Below, in pieces: positions 46,197 to 55,620 of a stretch of DNA of 64,000 nt (position 1 is its first letter; every line of letters starts with the position of its first letter). The DNA comes from Selenomonas sputigena ATCC 35185. GTDB taxonomy: Bacteria; Bacillota; Negativicutes; Selenomonadales; Selenomonadaceae. The stretch is taken from contig NC_015437.1 in the NCBI RefSeq assembly GCF_000208405.1, forward strand, positions 2,287,501 to 2,351,500, given 5' to 3'. The translations under genes and the position numbers were made by a program. The notes beneath the pieces are model-generated. The model was not told the origin of the DNA. It was given only the letters and a program-made list of their open reading frames with translations, and did no database searches.

Positions 46197-46271
46197 ATGG
46201 GGAGAATATCCTAGGAAGATTCCATGTGAATCATCAGCATGACCCGGCAGGGAAGCAGGGAGGAAAGAACG

Positions 46272-47102
46272 ATGAGCATCTCTTCAATTTCAGTCAACCC
46301 CTACGGCTCGGCAACGTTCGAGAAGATCAACTTGAACCTCGCCGAAGTGGGTCGCCAGAAGGCCGCCCAAGGATGGCACGAGGCAAAGGAAGTCTACAAG
46401 TCTTCGCCCTTCGGCAACGATACGAAGCTCGGCACCTCGAAATTCCAGCAGTCAAACAAGGAAGCAGAGCAGCTTGCCAATCGCTCGATCGCGAAGTCTG
46501 CACGCGCGGCGAAGGAAATCTACATGTCCTCGCCCTTCGGCAATGACACGAAGATCGGCACGTCGAAGTTCCAGCAGTCGAACGAAGAGGCAATCGCCCT
46601 CGCCGGCCGCTCGATCGCCAGCTCCGCCCGCGCCGCCAAGGCGTACTACATGGGCTCGGTCCTCGGCAACGACACGAAGCTCGGCACGTCAAAGTTCCAG
46701 CAGTCGAACGAGGAAGCGGCGCGGCTCGCCGACCGCTCGATTGCAAAATCGGCACGCGAAGCAAAGGCCGTCTACATGGCCTCGCCCTTCGGCAACGATA
46801 CGAAGGTCGGCTCATCGAAGTTCCAGCAGGCAAACGAAGAAGCGTTCGCCCTCGCCCAGCAGTCGGCATCGCGCGCCTCACGCGCAGCGAACGCCGTTTC
46901 CAAATCCTCCCCCTTCGGCAACGACACGAAGGTCGGCTCGTCCGCTTTCCAGCAGGCGAACAAGCGCATCGTCCAGACGGCCGCGAGCCATACGCCGCCC
47001 GTGCTGCAGCAGGCAAAAGCCGCCTACATACGCCAGATGCAGAATGCCGCCGAAGCCGCGAAGAACCCCACGCGCAACACGAAGGTCGATGTCGGCGCAT
47101 AA
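46272..47102 (+). CDS. Protein of five 42-residue tandem repeats
   Basis: The 276-residue protein has five tandem units starting at residues 44, 86, 128, 170 and 212. The consensus of each unit is SSPFGNDTKxGTSKFQQSNEEA followed by xxLAxRSIAxSARAAKxxYM. The DNA period is 126 bp. Units 1-4 are well conserved; the fifth decays into a Lys/Ala-rich tail. There is no signal peptide, cysteine or catalytic motif. Each unit looks like a loop plus a helix, which would suit a filament or scaffold. I do not recognise the family. GGGAGG precedes the ATG. It is followed after 40 bases by the Panacea-domain gene. Confidence 0.8.
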   Translation: MSISSISVNPYGSATFEKINLNLAEVGRQKAAQGWHEAKEVYKSSPFGNDTKLGTSKFQQSNKEAEQLANRSIAKSARAAKEIYMSSPFGNDTKIGTSKFQQSNEEAIALAGRSIASSARAAKAYYMGSVLGNDTKLGTSKFQQSNEEAARLADRSIAKSAREAKAVYMASPFGNDTKVGSSKFQQANEEAFALAQQSASRASRAANAVSKSSPFGNDTKVGSSAFQQANKRIVQTAASHTPPVLQQAKAAYIRQMQNAAEAAKNPTRNTKVDVGA

Positions 47103-47142
47103 CGAGTGAAAACCGCGTACAGTAAAGGAGGTGCACCGGCAC

Positions 47143-47577
47143 ATGGCGAATGTATTCGATGCAGCAAGGTATATCTTGCTCAAGACAGGCGAAATCAGTA
47201 CATGGAAGCTTCAGAAGCTCTGCTACTATGCGCAGGCGTGGACGCTTGCCTGGACGGGGAAGCCGCTTTTTCCCGAAGACTTCGAGGCGTGGCGCAACGG
47301 GCCGGTATGCCGGCCGCTTTTCGCGCGCCACAAAGGCATGTACTCTGTCACGGAAGATTTCCTGCCGGATGGAAATATTGACGCTTTGACCGCAGACGAA
47401 AAGGACAGCATCGACACGGTTCTCTCCGCATACGGTGCCATGGAGCCCTATCAGCTGCGCGCGCAGACGCACGCCGAAACACCGTGGAAGGCCGCGCGCG
47501 GATCGCTGGACGAAATGGCGTTCAGCGATTCCGTCATCTCCAAGGAAGCCATCGGTGCGTATTATGGGGCTCTTTGA
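47143..47577 (+). CDS. Panacea-domain (SocA-like, DUF4065) antitoxin candidate
   Basis: The 144-residue protein has the Panacea/DUF4065 pattern. It opens ANVFDAARYILLKTGEISTWKLQKLCYYAQAWTL, followed by FEAWRNGPVCRPLF and a helical C-terminus ending GAYYGAL. Panacea domains act as antitoxins for many unrelated toxins and as proteolysis adaptors (SocA). AAAGGAGGTG precedes the ATG at 47143. The stop overlaps the next start by one base (TGATG), so the pair is translationally coupled. This matches the typical Panacea toxin-antitoxin layout. Confidence 0.85.
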   Translation: MANVFDAARYILLKTGEISTWKLQKLCYYAQAWTLAWTGKPLFPEDFEAWRNGPVCRPLFARHKGMYSVTEDFLPDGNIDALTADEKDSIDTVLSAYGAMEPYQLRAQTHAETPWKAARGSLDEMAFSDSVISKEAIGAYYGAL

Positions 47578-48038
47578 TGAAGCGCCAGAAGCAAGTTCAC
47601 AAAAAGGGTAACGTACGGCAAAAAAAAGAAGTCGTCCTATCTCCCAAAAGTCAAAGCACAGGCTTCCCCATATTTCGTTTCGACCGCATCGACAAACAGG
47701 GCGCCTTCGCTTTCGATACGACACGCACGGATTTCAACCATAGGGATTTCCTCGATAAGATGATTGCCTACTCGCAAATGACATGGGCAGAAATCGCCCG
47801 TCAGACGCACGACAGCGGCAAATCAAAGCATCACTACGTCAAGGAGATCCAAAGATTTTCCCCCGCCGCGCGTGAGCGGCTCAAGTCTTTGAAACTTGAA
47901 GACTTTTCCGACGATCTCTTTTCCTTCGCGCTGAACAACAAGCTGCGAATCATCGGGTTGCGCCTTGATGACCACTTCCATGTTCTGTGGTATGACAGTG
48001 AGCATCTTGTATATCCTTCAGTGAAAAAGCATACATAA
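47577..48038 (+). CDS. Probable toxin partner of the Panacea protein
   Basis: The 153-residue protein starts in the Panacea stop codon. Residues 1-20 are strongly basic (KRQKQVHKKGNVRQKKE). The middle reads FRFDRIDKQGAFAFD and MTWAEIARQTHDSGKSKHHYV. The C-terminus RIIGLRLDDHFHVLWYDSEHLVYPS resembles the closing strands of RelE/HigB-type toxins, where aromatic and His residues contact mRNA. That resemblance is by eye only. Position, size and coupling support a toxin role. A strong terminator follows immediately. Confidence 0.65.
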   Translation: MKRQKQVHKKGNVRQKKEVVLSPKSQSTGFPIFRFDRIDKQGAFAFDTTRTDFNHRDFLDKMIAYSQMTWAEIARQTHDSGKSKHHYVKEIQRFSPAARERLKSLKLEDFSDDLFSFALNNKLRIIGLRLDDHFHVLWYDSEHLVYPSVKKHT

Positions 48039-48902: not shown

Positions 48903-48982
48903 GAAAACAGTTTAGTCATGGGAATGTTGTGATCAATCTTATTGAACATGAATGTCCAATAAAATTATGACGAATACCTCGC

Positions 48983-51478
48983 TTAGAATGATTTGAGGTC
49001 TTCGTCATAGAAATGCGGTCGCAAATGATGTCCTCGCATACACATCTCCAATGCAAGCTCCAAAAGTTCAATTTTGCCGTTGCTCGATTCCTCGAAACTT
49101 TCCGTGTCCGTATAAATTGAGAGGCGCTCTTTTATAGCCGTTTCCCCTGATTTTATGACTGCCAGATCAGACGCATCAGCCATGGTTTCAATATATGCTC
49201 GATAAAATTCCTGCGGATGATGCGCCTTGTAATACGCCAGACGATAATTCGACATGACATGATCCACGACATGAGCACGAGGAAACATATATCCCATTTT
49301 TTGACAAGATTGAATATACCAAGAGGGAACACCTTTTTCCTGCAGAATTTTTATGGTTTTGGGAAGGATGCCATTCCCCTTTCGCACGGATTCCATGATT
49401 TGAAAAGCACGCAGCGGGTCGATTCCCTTTCGTATCAAGTACATCATGACATCATCACGAGTTGCAGCGACTTCGTTCAACGTGCATACGCCTCGGCTAA
49501 TCAGTTTCTGTGCATTTCCTTCCCATGCTCCGGTTCCATGAGAAAAAGCGGAAATTTTGACCAGTTCACTAAAGAATCTCGGCTGCAATTCCTGCAGCAT
49601 TTGACGAACCTTGGGAGAGTGAAATTCGGGGATGCCAACGGTATCGGCTTTCCGGAATAAAGAGATGGCGGAAGGGTCATCGAAGGGAATATTCGAAAGA
49701 CTGCAGCCTGTGCCGCGCTCTAATTTTTCGAGGAGAGAGAGTACAAAATAACGCAGCAGATTGAGTTTAAGAAAATGATTGGTGAGATTTTGGTAGGAAA
49801 AATGGGGGATTCGATATGTATGACCTTCCTGATCGCTCACATCTTGAAGAGGAAGAAAGAAGCCGGGTTCTGCATCCTCAGGGAGTATGATGAAAGCCGA
49901 ATCGTTGATTCCCATCGCTTTTTTCGTGCCAACACATTGTTCCGCCACATCCTGCATGGGGATTCCCACGGGAATGCGATCCGTTGTATCAAGAGCGTTT
50001 TGGATATATGCCACGGCTTCATCATAGGATATCGTTTCGATGGTTCCAGCCGGATAAACTCGGACACGCTCCCATACTTTTTCGATATTTTCGGCTGCAA
50101 TGGAACGATACGAATCTGGATAACTCATGACGATATCAGGCTGTCTGCTCCCATCAAAGCCAACAAGAGCGGCATAGGGGATATCGTGTCCATCGCCCAG
50201 GAGTGTTTCTCCGCATTGGGGGCAAATGTTCGCCTGCAAATTAAAACCGGAAGCTACGGAACCATCTGTGATGAATTGGCTGTATTGACATTTTGCGCAA
50301 CGCCAATGCGGAGGGAGCGGATTGACTTCCGTTATCCCGATCAGATGCGCTGCCAAAGAAGCACCGATCGAGCCGTTCGTACAGGTGATGTGACCATCTT
50401 CATGCGCTTTTTGCACAAGTTTTTGCGGCAGCAAATACAGCGACGAATATTCATGTTCAAGGATGACGGCAAGTTCCTGCTCCAATCGTTCCTGCACAAT
50501 TCGCGGCAGATTTCTACCATATAATTCGGTTGCCTTGTCGTAAGACATGGATTTGATGATATCATGCGCATGGGGAATTTGGGGAAGACATTTTTCATAC
50601 GATGGGTCTATCTCATCCATCAAATCCGCGATGCGGTTCGAACCTGTGATCACAGCCTCATAGGCGGCTTCTTTTCCAAGATGGCTAAAGTTTTGAAGCA
50701 TTTCTTCTGTCGTACGAAGAAAACGTGATGACTGGGTGTCATCGTCTTTTTTACCGGCAGCGTTTAGGAGCACTCTGCGGCAGAACGCATCCTCCGGGTT
50801 CAAGTAATGCACGTCACCCGTCGCGACTAAGATTTTACCGGTTCTCTTGGAGATTTCGACGATTTTCCGATGGATGTTCCTCACATCTTCCTCGGATTGA
50901 ATGCAGGAGAAAGTTTCATCTGCAATTAAACCGACATAATTTTCCGCAGGCTGAATTTCCAGGTAATCGTAAAAATTGGCGATGGCTAAAATTTCATCAT
51001 CGCTCTTGGCGGCTGCGATTGCCCGAACGAGTCCCCCCTCCGCGCCCGCCGAGCCGAGCAGCAAGCCCTCTCGAAGTTCATGGAATACGCGTTTCGGAAT
51101 ATGGGGCTGATGATGAAAAACATTCCTGTGCGACAGAGTTACCAGTTCATACAAATGGAGCAGGCCTTTTTTATTCTTCGCTAACATAGAAATCCGATAG
51201 GGAATGGACTCCTTGCCATCTTCCTGCGCCATAGATCCGTCCATACCGTAAATAACCTTTACGCCAAGACGTGCGGCAATTTTCATGGCATCGGGAAATA
51301 CCTGCACAACGTCGTGGTCGGTAACGGCTACTGCCTTCCAACCCCAAGCGGCAGCCGTGCGAAGGAGTTCTCGCACAGAGAGTACGGACTCCATTTCGCT
51401 CATTTGCGTATGAACACTGAGTTCAACCCTTTTGACATCGGCTGTATCGCACCTCATGCCATCGCCAGAAAGTAGCAT
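48983..51478 (-). CDS. Inactivated PolC-type DNA polymerase III paralogue
   Basis: The 831-residue protein aligns by eye with Gram-positive PolC from the PHP domain to the finger domain, but it is much shorter than the usual ~1430. The N-terminal OB region is missing, and the exonuclease normally inserted in the PHP domain is cleanly absent near residue 90. The zinc module is kept (CAKC near 395, CPQC further on, NPLPPHW). The palm motif PDIDLNF reads PDIVMSY (about 445), and KLDILGHD reads KLNLLRYF (about 570), so two catalytic aspartates are lost. The PHP HxH is SVH. RPKTFSELV- and SVRKGKGL-type motifs remain. It should bind but not extend DNA. AAGGGG precedes the ATG. Confidence 0.85.
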   Translation of the reverse strand: MLLSGDGMRCDTADVKRVELSVHTQMSEMESVLSVRELLRTAAAWGWKAVAVTDHDVVQVFPDAMKIAARLGVKVIYGMDGSMAQEDGKESIPYRISMLAKNKKGLLHLYELVTLSHRNVFHHQPHIPKRVFHELREGLLLGSAGAEGGLVRAIAAAKSDDEILAIANFYDYLEIQPAENYVGLIADETFSCIQSEEDVRNIHRKIVEISKRTGKILVATGDVHYLNPEDAFCRRVLLNAAGKKDDDTQSSRFLRTTEEMLQNFSHLGKEAAYEAVITGSNRIADLMDEIDPSYEKCLPQIPHAHDIIKSMSYDKATELYGRNLPRIVQERLEQELAVILEHEYSSLYLLPQKLVQKAHEDGHITCTNGSIGASLAAHLIGITEVNPLPPHWRCAKCQYSQFITDGSVASGFNLQANICPQCGETLLGDGHDIPYAALVGFDGSRQPDIVMSYPDSYRSIAAENIEKVWERVRVYPAGTIETISYDEAVAYIQNALDTTDRIPVGIPMQDVAEQCVGTKKAMGINDSAFIILPEDAEPGFFLPLQDVSDQEGHTYRIPHFSYQNLTNHFLKLNLLRYFVLSLLEKLERGTGCSLSNIPFDDPSAISLFRKADTVGIPEFHSPKVRQMLQELQPRFFSELVKISAFSHGTGAWEGNAQKLISRGVCTLNEVAATRDDVMMYLIRKGIDPLRAFQIMESVRKGNGILPKTIKILQEKGVPSWYIQSCQKMGYMFPRAHVVDHVMSNYRLAYYKAHHPQEFYRAYIETMADASDLAVIKSGETAIKERLSIYTDTESFEESSNGKIELLELALEMCMRGHHLRPHFYDEDLKSF

Positions 51479-51558
51479 CTACATACCCCTTCTATAAAAA
51501 TCTTTATTACACGCAAATTCGACACATCGTTCCAATTCAAGCGAAGAACTTTGACGGC

Positions 51559-52329
51559 TCACACATCTTTCGACGCAACGCCTGCGTGATGCATTTCATA
51601 CGCAGAAAACATCAGTATCTCATTCTCTTCCCATGGCTCGACCTGCCACACAAGATCAACCTCTCCTCGGAAGCCGTCAGCGATTGCTTCCACCTTTTTT
51701 GCAATATGATAGAAGTTGAAGTCTTCTCCTGTCCCTCGGAAGATGAGCTGCACACCCCGCACTGTTTGATTCGCGGCAGGCATTTCTTCCCAAAGCAGAT
51801 GTTCTAGAGAGATACACCGAAGATCTCCTTTCGTCGACGCAAGCATCGGGAGAATATCCCGCCTGTCTACACCGACCAGTTGGATATTCATCGGCGTCCA
51901 TAGACCTGATGCGATTATGCAAGCCTTTGCCGCTGCCTCATCTGCAAAGCACATAAGAATCGGTCTGATGCAGCCGTCATCATCCTCCTGCAGTGCCGCC
52001 AGCCGCTCTGCACATGCGACAAAGTTTTTTTCAGAGGCTGTACGATAGATGCAGAGTATATCCTGTTGCCGCAATATCTCGAACGGGATCGTCATCGCCT
52101 GCGCATCCGAAATCAGCATGGTATGGGGCAACGATACCTCTTCCGTTGCGATGGACGCAGCATCCTCCTGTTCTGATTCGGAGGAAAATTGACGCACCGG
52201 CATACCGAGGAGCGGCTCACACTTTTCCATGTGGGAATAATATCGCGCCAGCGCAGAAAAGATGCTCTCATCCTCGCAGGCAAGGATCACACCACTGTCC
52301 TGCAGAGTATTTTCTGTATATGGCATCAT
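51559..52329 (-). CDS. Unknown protein with FtsZ-C-like C-terminal region
   Basis: The 256-residue acidic protein has no signal peptide. Residues 1-170 include an alternating strand/helix pattern (VILACEDESIFSALARYY, ILMCFADEAAAKACIIASG). The last 60 residues (VRGVQLIFRGTGEDFNFYHI, VDLVWQVEPWEENEILMFSAYE) resemble the FtsZ C-terminal domain in strand order and spacing. No tubulin GTPase loop (GGGTGTG) is present. The similarity is an eye judgement and could be chance. It lies 16 bases after the nuclease gene and 80 before the PolC-like gene, so the three are probably one operon. Confidence 0.6.
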   Translation of the reverse strand: MMPYTENTLQDSGVILACEDESIFSALARYYSHMEKCEPLLGMPVRQFSSESEQEDAASIATEEVSLPHTMLISDAQAMTIPFEILRQQDILCIYRTASEKNFVACAERLAALQEDDDGCIRPILMCFADEAAAKACIIASGLWTPMNIQLVGVDRRDILPMLASTKGDLRCISLEHLLWEEMPAANQTVRGVQLIFRGTGEDFNFYHIAKKVEAIADGFRGEVDLVWQVEPWEENEILMFSAYEMHHAGVASKDV

Positions 52330-52345
52330 GTTCGTTCCCTTTCCT

Positions 52346-53638
52346 CTATTCTTCCTTCGTCGCTTGCTGCGAATACGCTATGTCAGACTGCTTCGACAGT
52401 TCATCAAACATATGGAAAACTCGTCGAATGTCATCCTTTGAAATGCTCATCAAGGGTAAATCTACATAATAACAACCCCGCAAGCCAGCGTGTTTTTCCG
52501 AGTCATTGATATCTCTTTGATGTAACGTCATAGTCATTCCATCCACACCGATATCGCGAGTATTCCTTTCTGTATTCGCAGTGTCATCAAGTGCCTCTAC
52601 TAAGTCTTTCCTAGTGAGATTTTTTGAAACAGCATTTGACGAAACATATCTCAAAACGCTGAAAGTTGGATTCGACGGATGTTCTTCATTTGCGTTCGTC
52701 AAAAAGATATTCACTGCATACAACGACGTGTCCCCGCTACCGGAATTTGCTTCTTTGCTAAACGTCAGCCAAAGATCATCCACAATACCGGCGTACGTCT
52801 CTTCATACCTCTTGATAAACGTATATCCGCATTCCTGGGATTTAGAATGTATAGCCTTGAGCAATTTATCTACATTTCTGTATGTCATAAAAACCACAAA
52901 GGCGGCATCCTTATAGTTCTTTGTATAATCCTTATGATTCAGCATAAAGTATCCCTTCTTTTCTATTGACTGATCTGGTCTATCTGAAATGCCGTTTGTC
53001 ATAGACAAAAAGGGTTCGAACCCCTTTCTTGTCAATAATCTTACCAAATCACATATCATCAATTTCTGCCCAAAGGTATATTTGCTTCCTTTCCCCCCAT
53101 GTAAAATGTCCTTCATCGATTGCAATATATCTTCCCAACTCGCAAAAACGAAATGGACTCCTTGCTTGCTTATATCCTTCCTATATTTACGGTAAACCGA
53201 TATGCATGATTCATGCTTCGCAATGAACAGCAGGATTTTCTTTTTATCTTTGGGCAAATCGCACAAAATGTTTGCTTCGCGAATGAGCTGATCGTCTGAG
53301 GACAGTCCGCTCTGAAACTTTACCTCAATGCCAATATAGCAATTGTCAAATTCCAACAAAACATCCAATTCCCCCAGATCGTGTTTCGGCCAGAATTTGA
53401 TATGCTCCTCATCTCTGATATTTGTGCAATTCACGTTTTCTATGAGCTGAATTGCAGCCTGTGATTCAGCCTGCTGCTTCTCCGATTTGCGTAATGCCCC
53501 GCATAGTATGGGCTGCAATCCATCACAAAAATCCATGTACCTTAATGTACCGAAAAAATCTCCGGTCAGTTTATCCTCCAAACTGTCGGATAGGTTCGAG
53601 CCCGATCGGCTGATTTTTCCATAAAATTCCTCGACCAT
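52346..53638 (-). CDS. PD-(D/E)XK-family nuclease
   Basis: The 430-residue protein has a restriction-endonuclease-like core at about residues 65-135. A glutamate in the preceding helix is followed by GELDVLLEF and IGIEVKFQ, giving the D...E-x-K triad near residues 91-105. The C-terminal 280 residues are not recognised (YFMLNHKDY, FIKRYEETYAGIVDDLW). Such enzymes are common in anti-phage and DNA-repair systems. AAGGAGG lies 5 bases before the ATG at 53638, exactly where MITE copy B ends, so the native leader has been displaced. GC content is clearly lower than in the backbone. Confidence 0.8.
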   Translation of the reverse strand: MVEEFYGKISRSGSNLSDSLEDKLTGDFFGTLRYMDFCDGLQPILCGALRKSEKQQAESQAAIQLIENVNCTNIRDEEHIKFWPKHDLGELDVLLEFDNCYIGIEVKFQSGLSSDDQLIREANILCDLPKDKKKILLFIAKHESCISVYRKYRKDISKQGVHFVFASWEDILQSMKDILHGGKGSKYTFGQKLMICDLVRLLTRKGFEPFLSMTNGISDRPDQSIEKKGYFMLNHKDYTKNYKDAAFVVFMTYRNVDKLLKAIHSKSQECGYTFIKRYEETYAGIVDDLWLTFSKEANSGSGDTSLYAVNIFLTNANEEHPSNPTFSVLRYVSSNAVSKNLTRKDLVEALDDTANTERNTRDIGVDGMTMTLHQRDINDSEKHAGLRGCYYVDLPLMSISKDDIRRVFHMFDELSKQSDIAYSQQATKEE

Positions 53639-53649
53639 GAGTACCTCCT

Positions 53650-53815
53650 TAAGGAAACGCTGATAAAATGAAGTTGCCCAGATTTGCACAGATGCGCTGA
53701 TCCTATCGAGGAGACAAACCGCAGGCGTAGCAGTGCTACGTCGAGGATTTGTCGACGACGAGAGGACAGAGCAGATGTGTGAAGATGGGCGGCTGAATTT
53801 ATCAATGGTTCCTTA
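53650..53815. mobile_element. 166-bp MITE-like element, copy B
   Basis: The ends TAAGGAAACGCTGATAAA (53650-53667) and, at the right, the complement of TAAGGAACCATTGATAAA (53798-53815) match at 14 of 18 positions. The internal sequence is largely the same as copy A (38835-39000), and the length is identical. The element sits between the WYL regulator and the nuclease, directly touching the nuclease ribosome-binding site. Confidence 0.87.
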
Positions 53816-53847: not shown

Positions 53848-54852
53848 TTATTCCATCTCACCTGACAGATACTTCTTTCCCATATCCCTTACCACCTTAC
53901 GAATCTTATCCCGCAGGCTTTTCGGCTCTAAGATCTCCGCATATTTTCCATACTGCAACGCCCAATATTTCATCGCCTTTTCGTTGCAGGCAACGGAAAC
54001 GATGAGTTCATCCGCATCCTCCTGCACAATGCGGAAATCCTTTCCGAACCAGTCGATCAGCTGGCCCATCATTTGATCCCAGACGCGCATCTTCACCTGC
54101 ACGCTCGGACCGCTGAACATATAGATGTGCTCTGCCATGTGCTTGGGCAAACTGTAGCCTTGGGCAAAGTCCTCCACCTGCTTCTTCGGCTTGGCCTTGT
54201 CCTCAAGCATTTTTACTTTCGTCATGCAATCCAGGCGATAATGGGAAATATTATTGTATTTATCATAATTGCCAAGCAAATAATATCTGCCTTGATTTGC
54301 CACCATCTGATACGGACTTACGATGTACGGTTCTTCCCGCTTGGGGTGCAGCTTGAAGTCCTTGCCATAGCTGTTATAAATGAAGCTGACTTTCCGCCCC
54401 TGCTCAATGGCATCGTTCAGCACATCCAAATTCAGCAGGACTTGCTTGTTGTCCGAGTGTATGAGTTTCGGCAGATGGGAAACGTGCTTCACTTTGGCAT
54501 GGAAGTATTTGTTTCCAAGCCCTACCAGCTTCTCAATCAGCCGTTCGGCCTGTGCGCCGGAAAGCGTGCGGGAGAAGAGGACGCTGTCGATCAGCATCCT
54601 CAGTTCCGCATCCTCAAACTGGCGCGACGTAAGGCAGACGCCGCCTTGCAGGGAAATCTCATACCCCATATCCTTAAGGAGCATAAGATTGTTCTTGACC
54701 GTCTGCCGAGTGCATCGAATACCATAGTTTTTTTCCAGCAGATCCACGATTTCCAGCTGCGTCAAGCGGTGGTCGCTGTCCGTATACTGCTCCAAAATCT
54801 CCAGGATCAGCATGTTCAGGAGCTTCTTGTCCTGCCGTCCATAGGGATACAT
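53848..54852 (-). CDS. WYL-domain transcriptional regulator
   Basis: The 334-residue protein has an N-terminal winged helix (ILEILEQYTDSDHRLTQLEIVDLLEK, RQTVKNNLMLL), a WYL domain (about residues 130-210, FIYNSYGKDF and GRYYLLGNYDKYNNISHYRLD) and a WCX C-terminal domain. WYL regulators bind nucleic acid or nucleotide ligands and frequently control defence genes. It is encoded on the same strand as, and upstream of, the nuclease-PolC cassette, so it may regulate it. The ATG at 54852 follows a GAGG within an 11-bp tandem repeat array. Confidence 0.9.
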   Translation of the reverse strand: MYPYGRQDKKLLNMLILEILEQYTDSDHRLTQLEIVDLLEKNYGIRCTRQTVKNNLMLLKDMGYEISLQGGVCLTSRQFEDAELRMLIDSVLFSRTLSGAQAERLIEKLVGLGNKYFHAKVKHVSHLPKLIHSDNKQVLLNLDVLNDAIEQGRKVSFIYNSYGKDFKLHPKREEPYIVSPYQMVANQGRYYLLGNYDKYNNISHYRLDCMTKVKMLEDKAKPKKQVEDFAQGYSLPKHMAEHIYMFSGPSVQVKMRVWDQMMGQLIDWFGKDFRIVQEDADELIVSVACNEKAMKYWALQYGKYAEILEPKSLRDKIRKVVRDMGKKYLSGEME

Positions 54853-54963: not shown

Positions 54964-55389
54964 CTAGTCGAGGAGAAGTCCGTCCAATTCGACAAGTTTG
55001 GCATGAATGTCAAAACCGCATTCGCCCTCCTTGTAAAGCACGGTGGAAGATTCCGACCATCCGCCTCCCATCTGCTTGCCTCGGACATACAATGCACACG
55101 CCTTCTGCACATCAAACGCTTGGGGCGGGAGATGACCTTCCCGAACCGCCATTCCGTCCATGAGCACGGGATACCCCGTGATGTCGAGCATGGGGCTGGC
55201 ATTCTTATCCGGCTCGTCATCGTACATATACAGCTCAAATGCCCCCTCATAGCTCCGCTTGTCTACCTCGGAGTGCGCCTCATTTCGCACGAAATATCGG
55301 GGAATCGTGCGGATGCCATAGCCTTCGATGGAGTCTAGCCTTATCCGATCGTCTCCAAATCGAATAAATGCATGTTCCTTTCTGTTCAT
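54964..55389 (-). CDS. Hypothetical protein
   Basis: The 141-residue protein has no signal peptide or recognisable motif. It is beta-rich at the start (HAFIRFGDDRIRLDSIEGYGIRTIPRYFV), then acidic (ELYMYDDEPDK), and closes with HAKLVELDGLLLD. Two cysteines are present. The ATG at 55389 is chosen because AAGGGAG is 8 bases upstream. It lies upstream of the WYL gene on the same strand and has the same lower GC content, so it may belong to the same acquired region. Family unknown. Confidence 0.65.
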   Translation of the reverse strand: MNRKEHAFIRFGDDRIRLDSIEGYGIRTIPRYFVRNEAHSEVDKRSYEGAFELYMYDDEPDKNASPMLDITGYPVLMDGMAVREGHLPPQAFDVQKACALYVRGKQMGGGWSESSTVLYKEGECGFDIHAKLVELDGLLLD

Positions 55390-55620
55390 GGTGATTTCTC
55401 CCTTCATTACGATAGGAAAACCTTTCTGCTCTTGCTGATTACAGTATATCATATCCGATGTTAAAAATTTTTACCTTTCTTTCCATATACTCCTTGACCT
55501 TTTTGCCGGCAACTGCTATCTTGGAAGAAGCAGAGGCGGAAACATGTCCGTCAACCGGCGAATCAAGCGCCTTAGGAAGCAGCTTAACCCTTGTTGCAGT
55601 AAACGAAAAAGGAGGCCTCC
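55390..55620. other. Intergenic region at the island edge
   Basis: It contains the divergent starts of the hypothetical gene and the kinase at 55621. On the minus strand TATACT (near 55447) could be a -10 without a clear -35. The stretch 55500-55600 is again GC-rich and may hold remnants of an older gene. Confidence 0.3.

Follow-up and report, generated by a model that had tools for sequence, protein, structure and literature searches.

A WYL-headed nuclease locus of Selenomonas sputigena with PolC and predicted FtsZ relatives, possibly kept as bait for phage takeover proteins

Introduction

Regulators of the WYL family control the CBASS (cyclic oligonucleotide-based anti-phage signaling system) and BREX (bacteriophage exclusion) defenses (PMC9122588, PMC9122601). 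In both of these systems, CapW-CBASS and BrxR-BREX, a WYL-WCX regulator stands beside a variable defense-type operon with a nuclease, and the same arrangement is seen at the locus described here, which lies within a 64,000-nucleotide stretch (the window) of the Selenomonas sputigena ATCC 35185 genome (contig NC_015437.1, positions 2,287,501 to 2,351,500; the genome is complete, at 2,568,361 bp). The window locus, however, contains no CBASS or BREX parts, and its cargo consists of replisome and divisome paralogues: a PolC-like protein and a “middle protein” with a predicted tubulin/FtsZ fold, both encoded behind a nuclease gene.

An earlier note on this DNA, made from the sequence, had put this trio forward as a candidate new system, and our analysis supports that proposal: equivalent loci occur in variable settings, and no named system in PADLOC 2023 is matched as a whole, only the regulator and the nuclease finding a match and the PolC-like and middle proteins giving no hit. 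We regard the locus as very probably a real, selected unit, and consider a role in defense or conflict fairly probable. More tentatively, we propose from gene content and by analogy that the WYL-controlled paralogues may act as bait for phage takeover proteins and so license the nuclease. Other loci and genomes are referred to below by our working handles (L and G numbers, respectively).

The locus and its regulator

The core of the locus is formed by four minus-strand genes, listed here in transcription order with the evidence for each:

53848..54852, minus strand: WYL regulator (WYL and WCX domains), leads the locus (Pfam, PADLOC)
52346..53638, minus strand: PD-(D/E)XK-type nuclease, 430 aa (motif, PADLOC PDC-M15A)
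51559..52329, minus strand: middle protein, 256 aa, predicted degenerate tubulin/FtsZ fold (AlphaFold model, structure matches)
48983..51478, minus strand: PolC paralogue, 831 aa (Pfam, alignment to PolC)

The coordinates confirm the close spacing first reported for the three same-strand genes, with 16 bp between the nuclease and middle genes and 80 bp between the middle and PolC-like genes. The block had also been called AT-rich relative to the backbone, and its GC content is indeed 44-51%, against about 58-62% across most of the window. The WYL gene was correctly placed upstream: its product exceeds the Pfam cut-offs for both WYL (5.8e-14) and WCX (5.6e-9), matches the PADLOC WYL profile at 4.8e-31, and has an N-terminal helix-turn-helix region with a weak match (HTH_11, E 0.13). 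Relatives of this regulator that are 56-97% identical head equivalent loci, and the window type is present in 42 of 151 genomes of the family; matches in the phage collection are distant, at 31% identity or less. The same genome contains a second WYL gene of this subfamily (L067, G000:C1:1089758-1090741), which is flanked by transposase-like genes and heads an ADP-ribosylglycohydrolase-like fusion gene. On plasmid pCY186 of Butyrivibrio proteoclasticus (L187), a WYL gene of the same type directly follows mcrC, and is followed by a second WYL gene and dnaX.

Between the window and its sister species, the ratio of nonsynonymous to synonymous substitution rates (dN/dS) is 0.17 for the WYL gene, 0.44 for the nuclease, 0.42 for the middle gene and 0.27 for the PolC-like gene, with GAPDH as a reference at 0.064. 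Given ratios of 0.27-0.44, we consider the trio genes to be retained under selection. Pseudogene status is not favored, as these ratios are accompanied by frames that are intact between the species.

The PolC-like protein

The PolC-like protein contains the Pfam domains PHP, DNA_pol3_alpha (the polymerase NTPase domain, partial) and finger, and its residues 10-819 are collinear with the Geobacillus kaustophilus PolC structure 3F2B (E 1.1e-192). A standard host PolC, 46% identical to it, is encoded elsewhere in the genome. The PHP, Zn knuckle and fingers regions are homologous to those of PolC and the knuckle cysteines are retained, with serine in place of the first histidine in the PHP HxH pair. 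The original description of a PolC paralogue without catalytic aspartates holds for two of the three, which are replaced by V450 and N573, and fails for the third, D448, which is retained. When aligned to PolC, the protein stops before the helix-hairpin-helix (HhH) region and the clamp motif, and the N-terminal/OB region is also absent. The C-terminal clamp motif and HhH region are missing from every shortened PolC paralogue checked, and the suggestion that the protein serves as a clamp-binding sensor must be rejected on these grounds.

Identity to host PolC is 46-66% at residues 1-450 and 601-750, 22-28% at residues 451-600, which form the catalytic palm, and about 30% over the last 80 residues. 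Because erosion is concentrated in the palm, the protein reads as a pseudoenzyme rather than the product of a gene in uniform decay. An in-frame deletion has removed the PHP domain from the sister-species protein and left the remainder in place; short PolC paralogues (445-523 aa) likewise have no PHP domain, which is present in longer forms of 860-900 aa. A PHP nuclease role was considered and is not favored, given the damage to the domain in the window and its in-frame loss from the sister-species protein.

A PolC tree built with a quick method distributes the PolC-like proteins over at least four separate lines. One, including the window protein, is sister to Selenomonadaceae PolC, one joins the Selenomonadaceae short forms with a Lachnospiraceae locus, and two are purely Lachnospiraceae; a full-length pair falls inside the Selenomonadaceae PolCs. 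A standard PolC is also present in each Lachnospiraceae genome tested, with the G177 copy in pieces on short contigs. The best phage-collection matches of the window protein reach 35-39% identity, compared to 46% for host PolC.

Two Anaerovibrio-group genomes (G103 and G022) encode a full-length PolC of 1272 aa inside a WYL locus (L103 and L106), and G022 carries a second full-length PolC on another contig. Separately, a comparison of the host PolC (L002) with L133 and with Lachnospiraceae PolC suggests that Selenomonadaceae PolC has no counterpart of the proofreading exonuclease that the Lachnospiraceae proteins carry as an insert in their PHP region.

The middle protein

The middle protein has no match in the Pfam, NCBIfam or PADLOC profiles. 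It had been credited with an FtsZ-C-like tail; this tail is real, and the whole protein models as a tubulin/FtsZ fold. The AlphaFold model, computed from six sequences, is of moderate confidence (predicted local distance difference test, pLDDT, 61), and the Foldseek matches listed against the PDB are TubZ, CetZ, FtsZ or tubulin throughout (best E 4e-5). A VIA-align comparison gave a Z of 8.3 over 197 residues. A Z near 8 could on its own reflect a common arrangement, and we accept the tubulin fold because three further lines of evidence agree with it: the one outside match of the family hidden Markov model (HMM) across loci is an FtsZ paralogue (E 1e-3), profile comparison with hhalign aligns the end of the protein with the FtsZ C-terminal region (probability 45, E 2e-4), and FtsZ-like genes occupy the middle-protein position in sister loci. 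Against an FtsZ profile, the E-values of middle-protein relatives are 0.1-0.7. We therefore model the middle protein as a degenerate member of the tubulin/FtsZ fold.

The GGGTGTG GTPase signature is not found in the window protein or in most of its relatives, with GGGAGTG occurring in L033 and GGGTGTG in L148. Across loci, the FtsZ-like proteins grade from an intact signature (L033) down to forms that Pfam does not recognize. In L083 and L084, the WYL gene is followed by a tandem array of three diverged middle-protein copies, accompanied by two further genes; a PolC-like gene is absent from both loci.

The nucleases

The window nuclease carries the core motif GELDVLLEF-IGIEVK, a textbook PD-(D/E)XK arrangement that upholds its first assignment and is conserved in L108. 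It matches the PADLOC candidate PDC-M15A at 7.5e-7, and its homologue in L099 does so at 4.3e-10, with a PDDEXK_4 match (0.0026) below the Pfam cut-off; a PDB sequence search with the nuclease gave no credible match. Full-length relatives occur in four of 189 family genomes, in every case within a locus headed by a window-type WYL gene and followed by a middle-protein or FtsZ-like gene; the contig ends there in two of the four, where a PolC-like gene may follow downstream.

More broadly, loci with PolC-like or FtsZ-like genes tend toward a restriction-type nuclease whose family is exchangeable:

PDC-M15A: window, L099
PDC-S02: L028, L029
PDC-S26: L030
Mrr/ZorD-like (ZorD-Mrr) and PDDEXK_4: L068
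PDDEXK_4, just below cut-off: L162

The earlier note had reasoned that a PolC-like protein always found without the nuclease would speak against a system. Instead, an annotated or motif-supported restriction-type nuclease, of changing family, is present in six of the nine Selenomonadaceae PolC-like loci (window, L027, L028, L029, L030 and L068), and there is a candidate in one more of the nine, L032.

Related loci in Selenomonadaceae and Lachnospiraceae

The WYL subfamily of the window occurs patchily in both Selenomonadaceae and Lachnospiraceae, and a second bacterial class is thus involved. The Selenomonadaceae picture comes from 48 fetched WYL-type loci, whose variable operons hold FtsZ-like, PolC-like, DnaE-like (565-701 aa), DnaA-like, DnaB-like, FtsH-like and HD genes. 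The Lachnospiraceae loci were found by a GTDB scan (Butyrivibrio, Oribacterium, Lachnoanaerobaculum, Pseudobutyrivibrio and other genera) and also contain PolC-, DnaE-, DnaA-, DnaB-, FtsZ- and FtsH-like genes. Pfam searches on examples confirmed the FtsZ, FtsH (AAA and M41), DnaB_C, Bac_DnaA, DnaE and HD assignments, and did not detect the DnaB N-domain or the DnaA DNA-binding domain in the paralogue examples. In the DnaB-like protein of L099, GMT stands in place of GKT, so that the Walker A lysine is gone. Selenomonadaceae loci usually combine a relative of a division protein with a relative of a replication protein.

Among non-housekeeping PolC-like loci in 60 relatives, nine of 11 lie close to a WYL gene of the window subfamily. 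In an interval reaching 4 kb upstream and 8 kb downstream of the WYL gene, 65 of 549 same-strand genes match replication and division seeds, compared with 10 of 486 other flank genes (odds ratio 6.4). These seeds were drawn partly from the loci themselves; a repeat using canonical PolC, DnaE and FtsZ alone gave 35 of 550 against 9 of 489 (odds ratio 3.6, p 3e-4).

Several individual loci extend this inventory. In Butyrivibrio sp. FCS014 (L186), a single operon behind the WYL gene encodes an RNase J-like protein, an FtsH-like protein, a DnaE fragment, a PolC fragment, a DnaA-like protein and an N-terminal piece of DnaG, and in Anaerovibrio sp. RM50 (L081/L164) one WYL operon holds RtcB- and PrfH-like genes together with genes for DnaA-like and FtsH-like proteins; the DnaG, RtcB and PrfH names, like that of the ADP-ribosylglycohydrolase-like genes also seen in WYL operons, were assigned from sequence alone. 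A protein family (MDVLSFVNSKDIREYLHEIDYKCDSMQAAWL...) is common to WYL loci of the two bacterial families (L031, L082, L162), two of these three loci also holding PolC-like genes, and the L119 WYL locus contains an IMS-family polymerase fragment.

Boundaries and neighboring genes

Three further features lie at the locus:

54964..55452, minus strand: accessory open reading frame (ORF) c11, 162 aa, function not assigned, upstream of the WYL gene (tblastn across loci)
53655..53815, no strand: miniature inverted-repeat transposable element (MITE), 161 bp, between the WYL gene and the operon (genome copies, sister-species comparison)
48966..49009, minus strand: terminator-like hairpin at the 3' end of the PolC-like gene (inverted repeat I2, RNA fold)

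The RNA of region 48940-49015 folds at -24.7 kcal/mol (z -6.25) into a stem followed by an AT-rich tail, and a comparable repeat is visible in the sister species. Since this strong hairpin lies at the stop codon of the PolC-like gene, the unit probably ends there, and the trio probably forms one transcription unit. The MITE has 49 matches in the genome, about 20 of them full or near-full length at 81-100% identity. It had been taken for a border of the block and is nothing of the kind, sitting between the WYL and nuclease genes. The sister species (G001) lacks the element here, its WYL-nuclease gap measuring about 51 bp, and the regulator is therefore split from the operon in the window and not in that species.

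ORF c11 is a member of the locus, lying upstream of the regulator. Across all loci examined by tblastn, its matches solely adjoin WYL genes of the window type (91% identity in the sister species, L027; 86% in L084; 56% in L099; 43% in L079/L107), and each of these loci also has FtsZ-like or middle-protein genes. A Pfam search with c11 gave no match.

Beyond the locus, a SocA/Panacea antitoxin-like gene (Pfam SocA_Panacea 2.7e-18) overlaps a 184-aa ORF (the pair spans 47131-47577 / 47484-48038), and the two are possibly a toxin-antitoxin pair adjoining the locus. Next to these, a 287-aa ORF at 46239-47102 is built from repeats resembling SSPFGNDTKxGTSKFQQSNEEA.

Discussion

The presence of DnaA, DnaB, DnaE, DnaG and FtsH paralogues in equivalent loci moves the best reading of the window locus away from a DNA sensor, as initially suggested, toward bait or brake. 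It is conceivable, and we put it forward with reserve, that the WYL loci of Selenomonadaceae and Lachnospiraceae provide an immunity based on target mimicry, in which host PolC, DnaE, DnaA, DnaB, DnaG and FtsZ have been repeatedly duplicated and disabled, and are kept with FtsH, such that their capture by a phage would trigger the nuclease. In this model, the WYL protein would repress or tune the operon, by analogy with CapW and BrxR, with expression rising upon nucleic-acid or phage stress. The paralogues, stripped of much catalytic and recruitment capacity and yet still largely host-shaped, would be bound as bait by phage proteins that seize the replisome or divisome, and this binding would release or direct the nuclease; such licensing of a nuclease by paralogues is possible. 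The known targets of phage early proteins include FtsZ, FtsH, DnaG, DnaI, DnaN and HolA (PMC3594737), and we count their overlap with the recruited set in favor of the paralogues serving as bait. The repeated origin of such clusters in two families would point to an undescribed anti-virus system.

The composition of the loci, the protein families involved, the selective loss of the catalytic center, purifying selection, separate recruitments and the exchangeable nucleases are all observed, and count toward this reading. A number of observations weigh on the other side. Three related PolC-like proteins retain all three aspartates, and the full-length PolC of the two Anaerovibrio-group loci has all of the residues that were checked. 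Walker A is retained in most DnaA- and DnaB-like proteins, and Walker A and HExGH in most FtsH-like proteins; as most of the latter look like active proteases, FtsH could be acting as an effector and not as bait. The structure model of the window nuclease (pLDDT 48) is too poor to confirm a restriction-endonuclease fold, L031 has PolC-like genes and no recognized nuclease, and the motif-based enrichment of nucleases is not significant and suggestive at most (13/522 compared to 3/368, p 0.075). In addition, the canonical seeds match a PolC, DnaE or FtsZ relative in 23 of 79 named loci, leaving about 70% without one, and both enrichment tests ignore shared ancestry, a concern answered in part by the PolC tree, with its recruitment on separate lines.

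Truncated subunits are classic poisons, and the main rival to a bait function is a dominant-negative brake on replication and division. Here the WYL protein would switch the operon on upon DNA damage or infection, the truncated PolC, FtsZ, DnaA and DnaB paralogues would poison the replisome or divisome of host or phage, and the nuclease would degrade DNA. The pairing of division with replication relatives in most Selenomonadaceae loci fits this explanation, as does the reported capacity of WYL proteins to sense single-stranded DNA and control damage responses (PMC11804915, PMC12340889). However, the missing parts (the clamp motif and HhH of PolC, the DnaB N-domain and the DnaA DNA-binding domain) are those by which the proteins would reach the replisome, and an adjoining nuclease of changing family would be needless, so that we consider a brake doubtful. 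As the lost modules are mainly those that carry these proteins to their normal workplace, bait is slightly favored over brake.

It is unlikely that the locus is a chance hotspot, a recombination-prone WYL island in which duplicated core genes are trapped and decay. The highly variable cargo, the truncated and fragmented paralogues, the transposase-like genes in L067 and L084 and the MITE insertion in the window would all be expected of such an island. Decay is nevertheless difficult to reconcile with dN/dS values of 0.27-0.44 and frames that stay intact between species, to the point that even the PHP deletion of the sister species preserves the frame. The recruited set is moreover biased toward replication and division proteins, the catalytic palm and the C-terminal end bear most of the erosion of the window copy, and same-strand order is conserved.

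Still less probable is an accessory role in repair or mutagenesis, with the inactive polymerase acting as an ImuB-like adaptor or as a PHP exonuclease. Polymerases of the PolX family, which have a PHP domain, are reported to act as exonucleases after losing polymerase activity (PMC9226535), and one WYL locus, L119, carries the IMS-family polymerase fragment. Against this, the clamp motif is absent, serine replaces the first histidine of HxH in the window PHP domain, the sister-species protein has lost this domain through an in-frame deletion and the short paralogues do not contain it, and FtsZ partners are a poor match for repair. Finally, a remnant of a phage or plasmid replicon, with PolIII and tubulin genes of jumbo-phage type left in the chromosome, is brought to mind by the mention of both FtsZ-like proteins and Pol III alpha in a jumbo-phage survey (PMC7824862) and is very improbable, as the window PolC-like protein groups with host Selenomonadaceae PolC and is closer to it (46%) than to any phage-collection match (35-39%), the WYL gene reaches 31% at best in that collection, and no phage structural genes were seen.

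Should the paralogues indeed serve as bait, these loci would document at the genome level that bacteria retain disabled versions of their essential machinery for this purpose. The recruited proteins would then reveal which host parts phages attack in Firmicutes of the gut, rumen and mouth, for which few phage inhibitors are known, and the trigger of orphan nucleases in defense islands would become testable, each locus naming its presumed trigger target. Should the brake prove correct instead, the loci would offer a new way of halting replication and division jointly.

Comparison with known systems

The individual parts of the locus have clear counterparts. The nucleases of the WYL loci match the PADLOC candidates PDC-M15A, PDC-S02 and PDC-S26; these, however, are single candidate models with no mechanism described in the sources searched, and the PolC- and FtsZ-like partners are unmatched. 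The PolC-like protein shares PHP, Zn knuckle and fingers with housekeeping PolC (3F2B), from which it differs in the loss of two of three catalytic aspartates, the N-terminal/OB region, HhH and the clamp motif, and in its eroded palm. The middle protein resembles FtsZ and TubZ in its modeled tubulin fold and in C-terminal domain similarity, and differs from them in the absence of the GTPase signature and in an identity of only 9-15%.

In the ImuA-ImuB-DnaE2 mutasome, an inactive polymerase is encoded beside its partners, ImuB being a Y-family protein with a clamp motif. An ImuB-like role had been offered as the alternative for the window locus and is not favored, since the PolC-like protein has neither the clamp motif nor the Y-family fold (its Pfam domains are PHP, DNA_pol3_alpha and finger only) and thus belongs to the wrong polymerase family. 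In plant guard/decoy immunity, an integrated decoy joins a paralogue of a pathogen's target to an executor, and the paralogues of the WYL loci would work in a like manner. This resemblance is one of logic only.

A literature search for defense loci with PolC, FtsZ, DnaB or FtsH, or for decoy paralogues of this type, found no relevant paper, with preprints and subscription journals mostly outside its coverage, and it is possible that such a locus has been described elsewhere. The nuclease candidates and the WYL regulator are of known kinds; what appears to be new is that a nuclease operon should include, as permanent members, disabled paralogues of replisome and divisome proteins.

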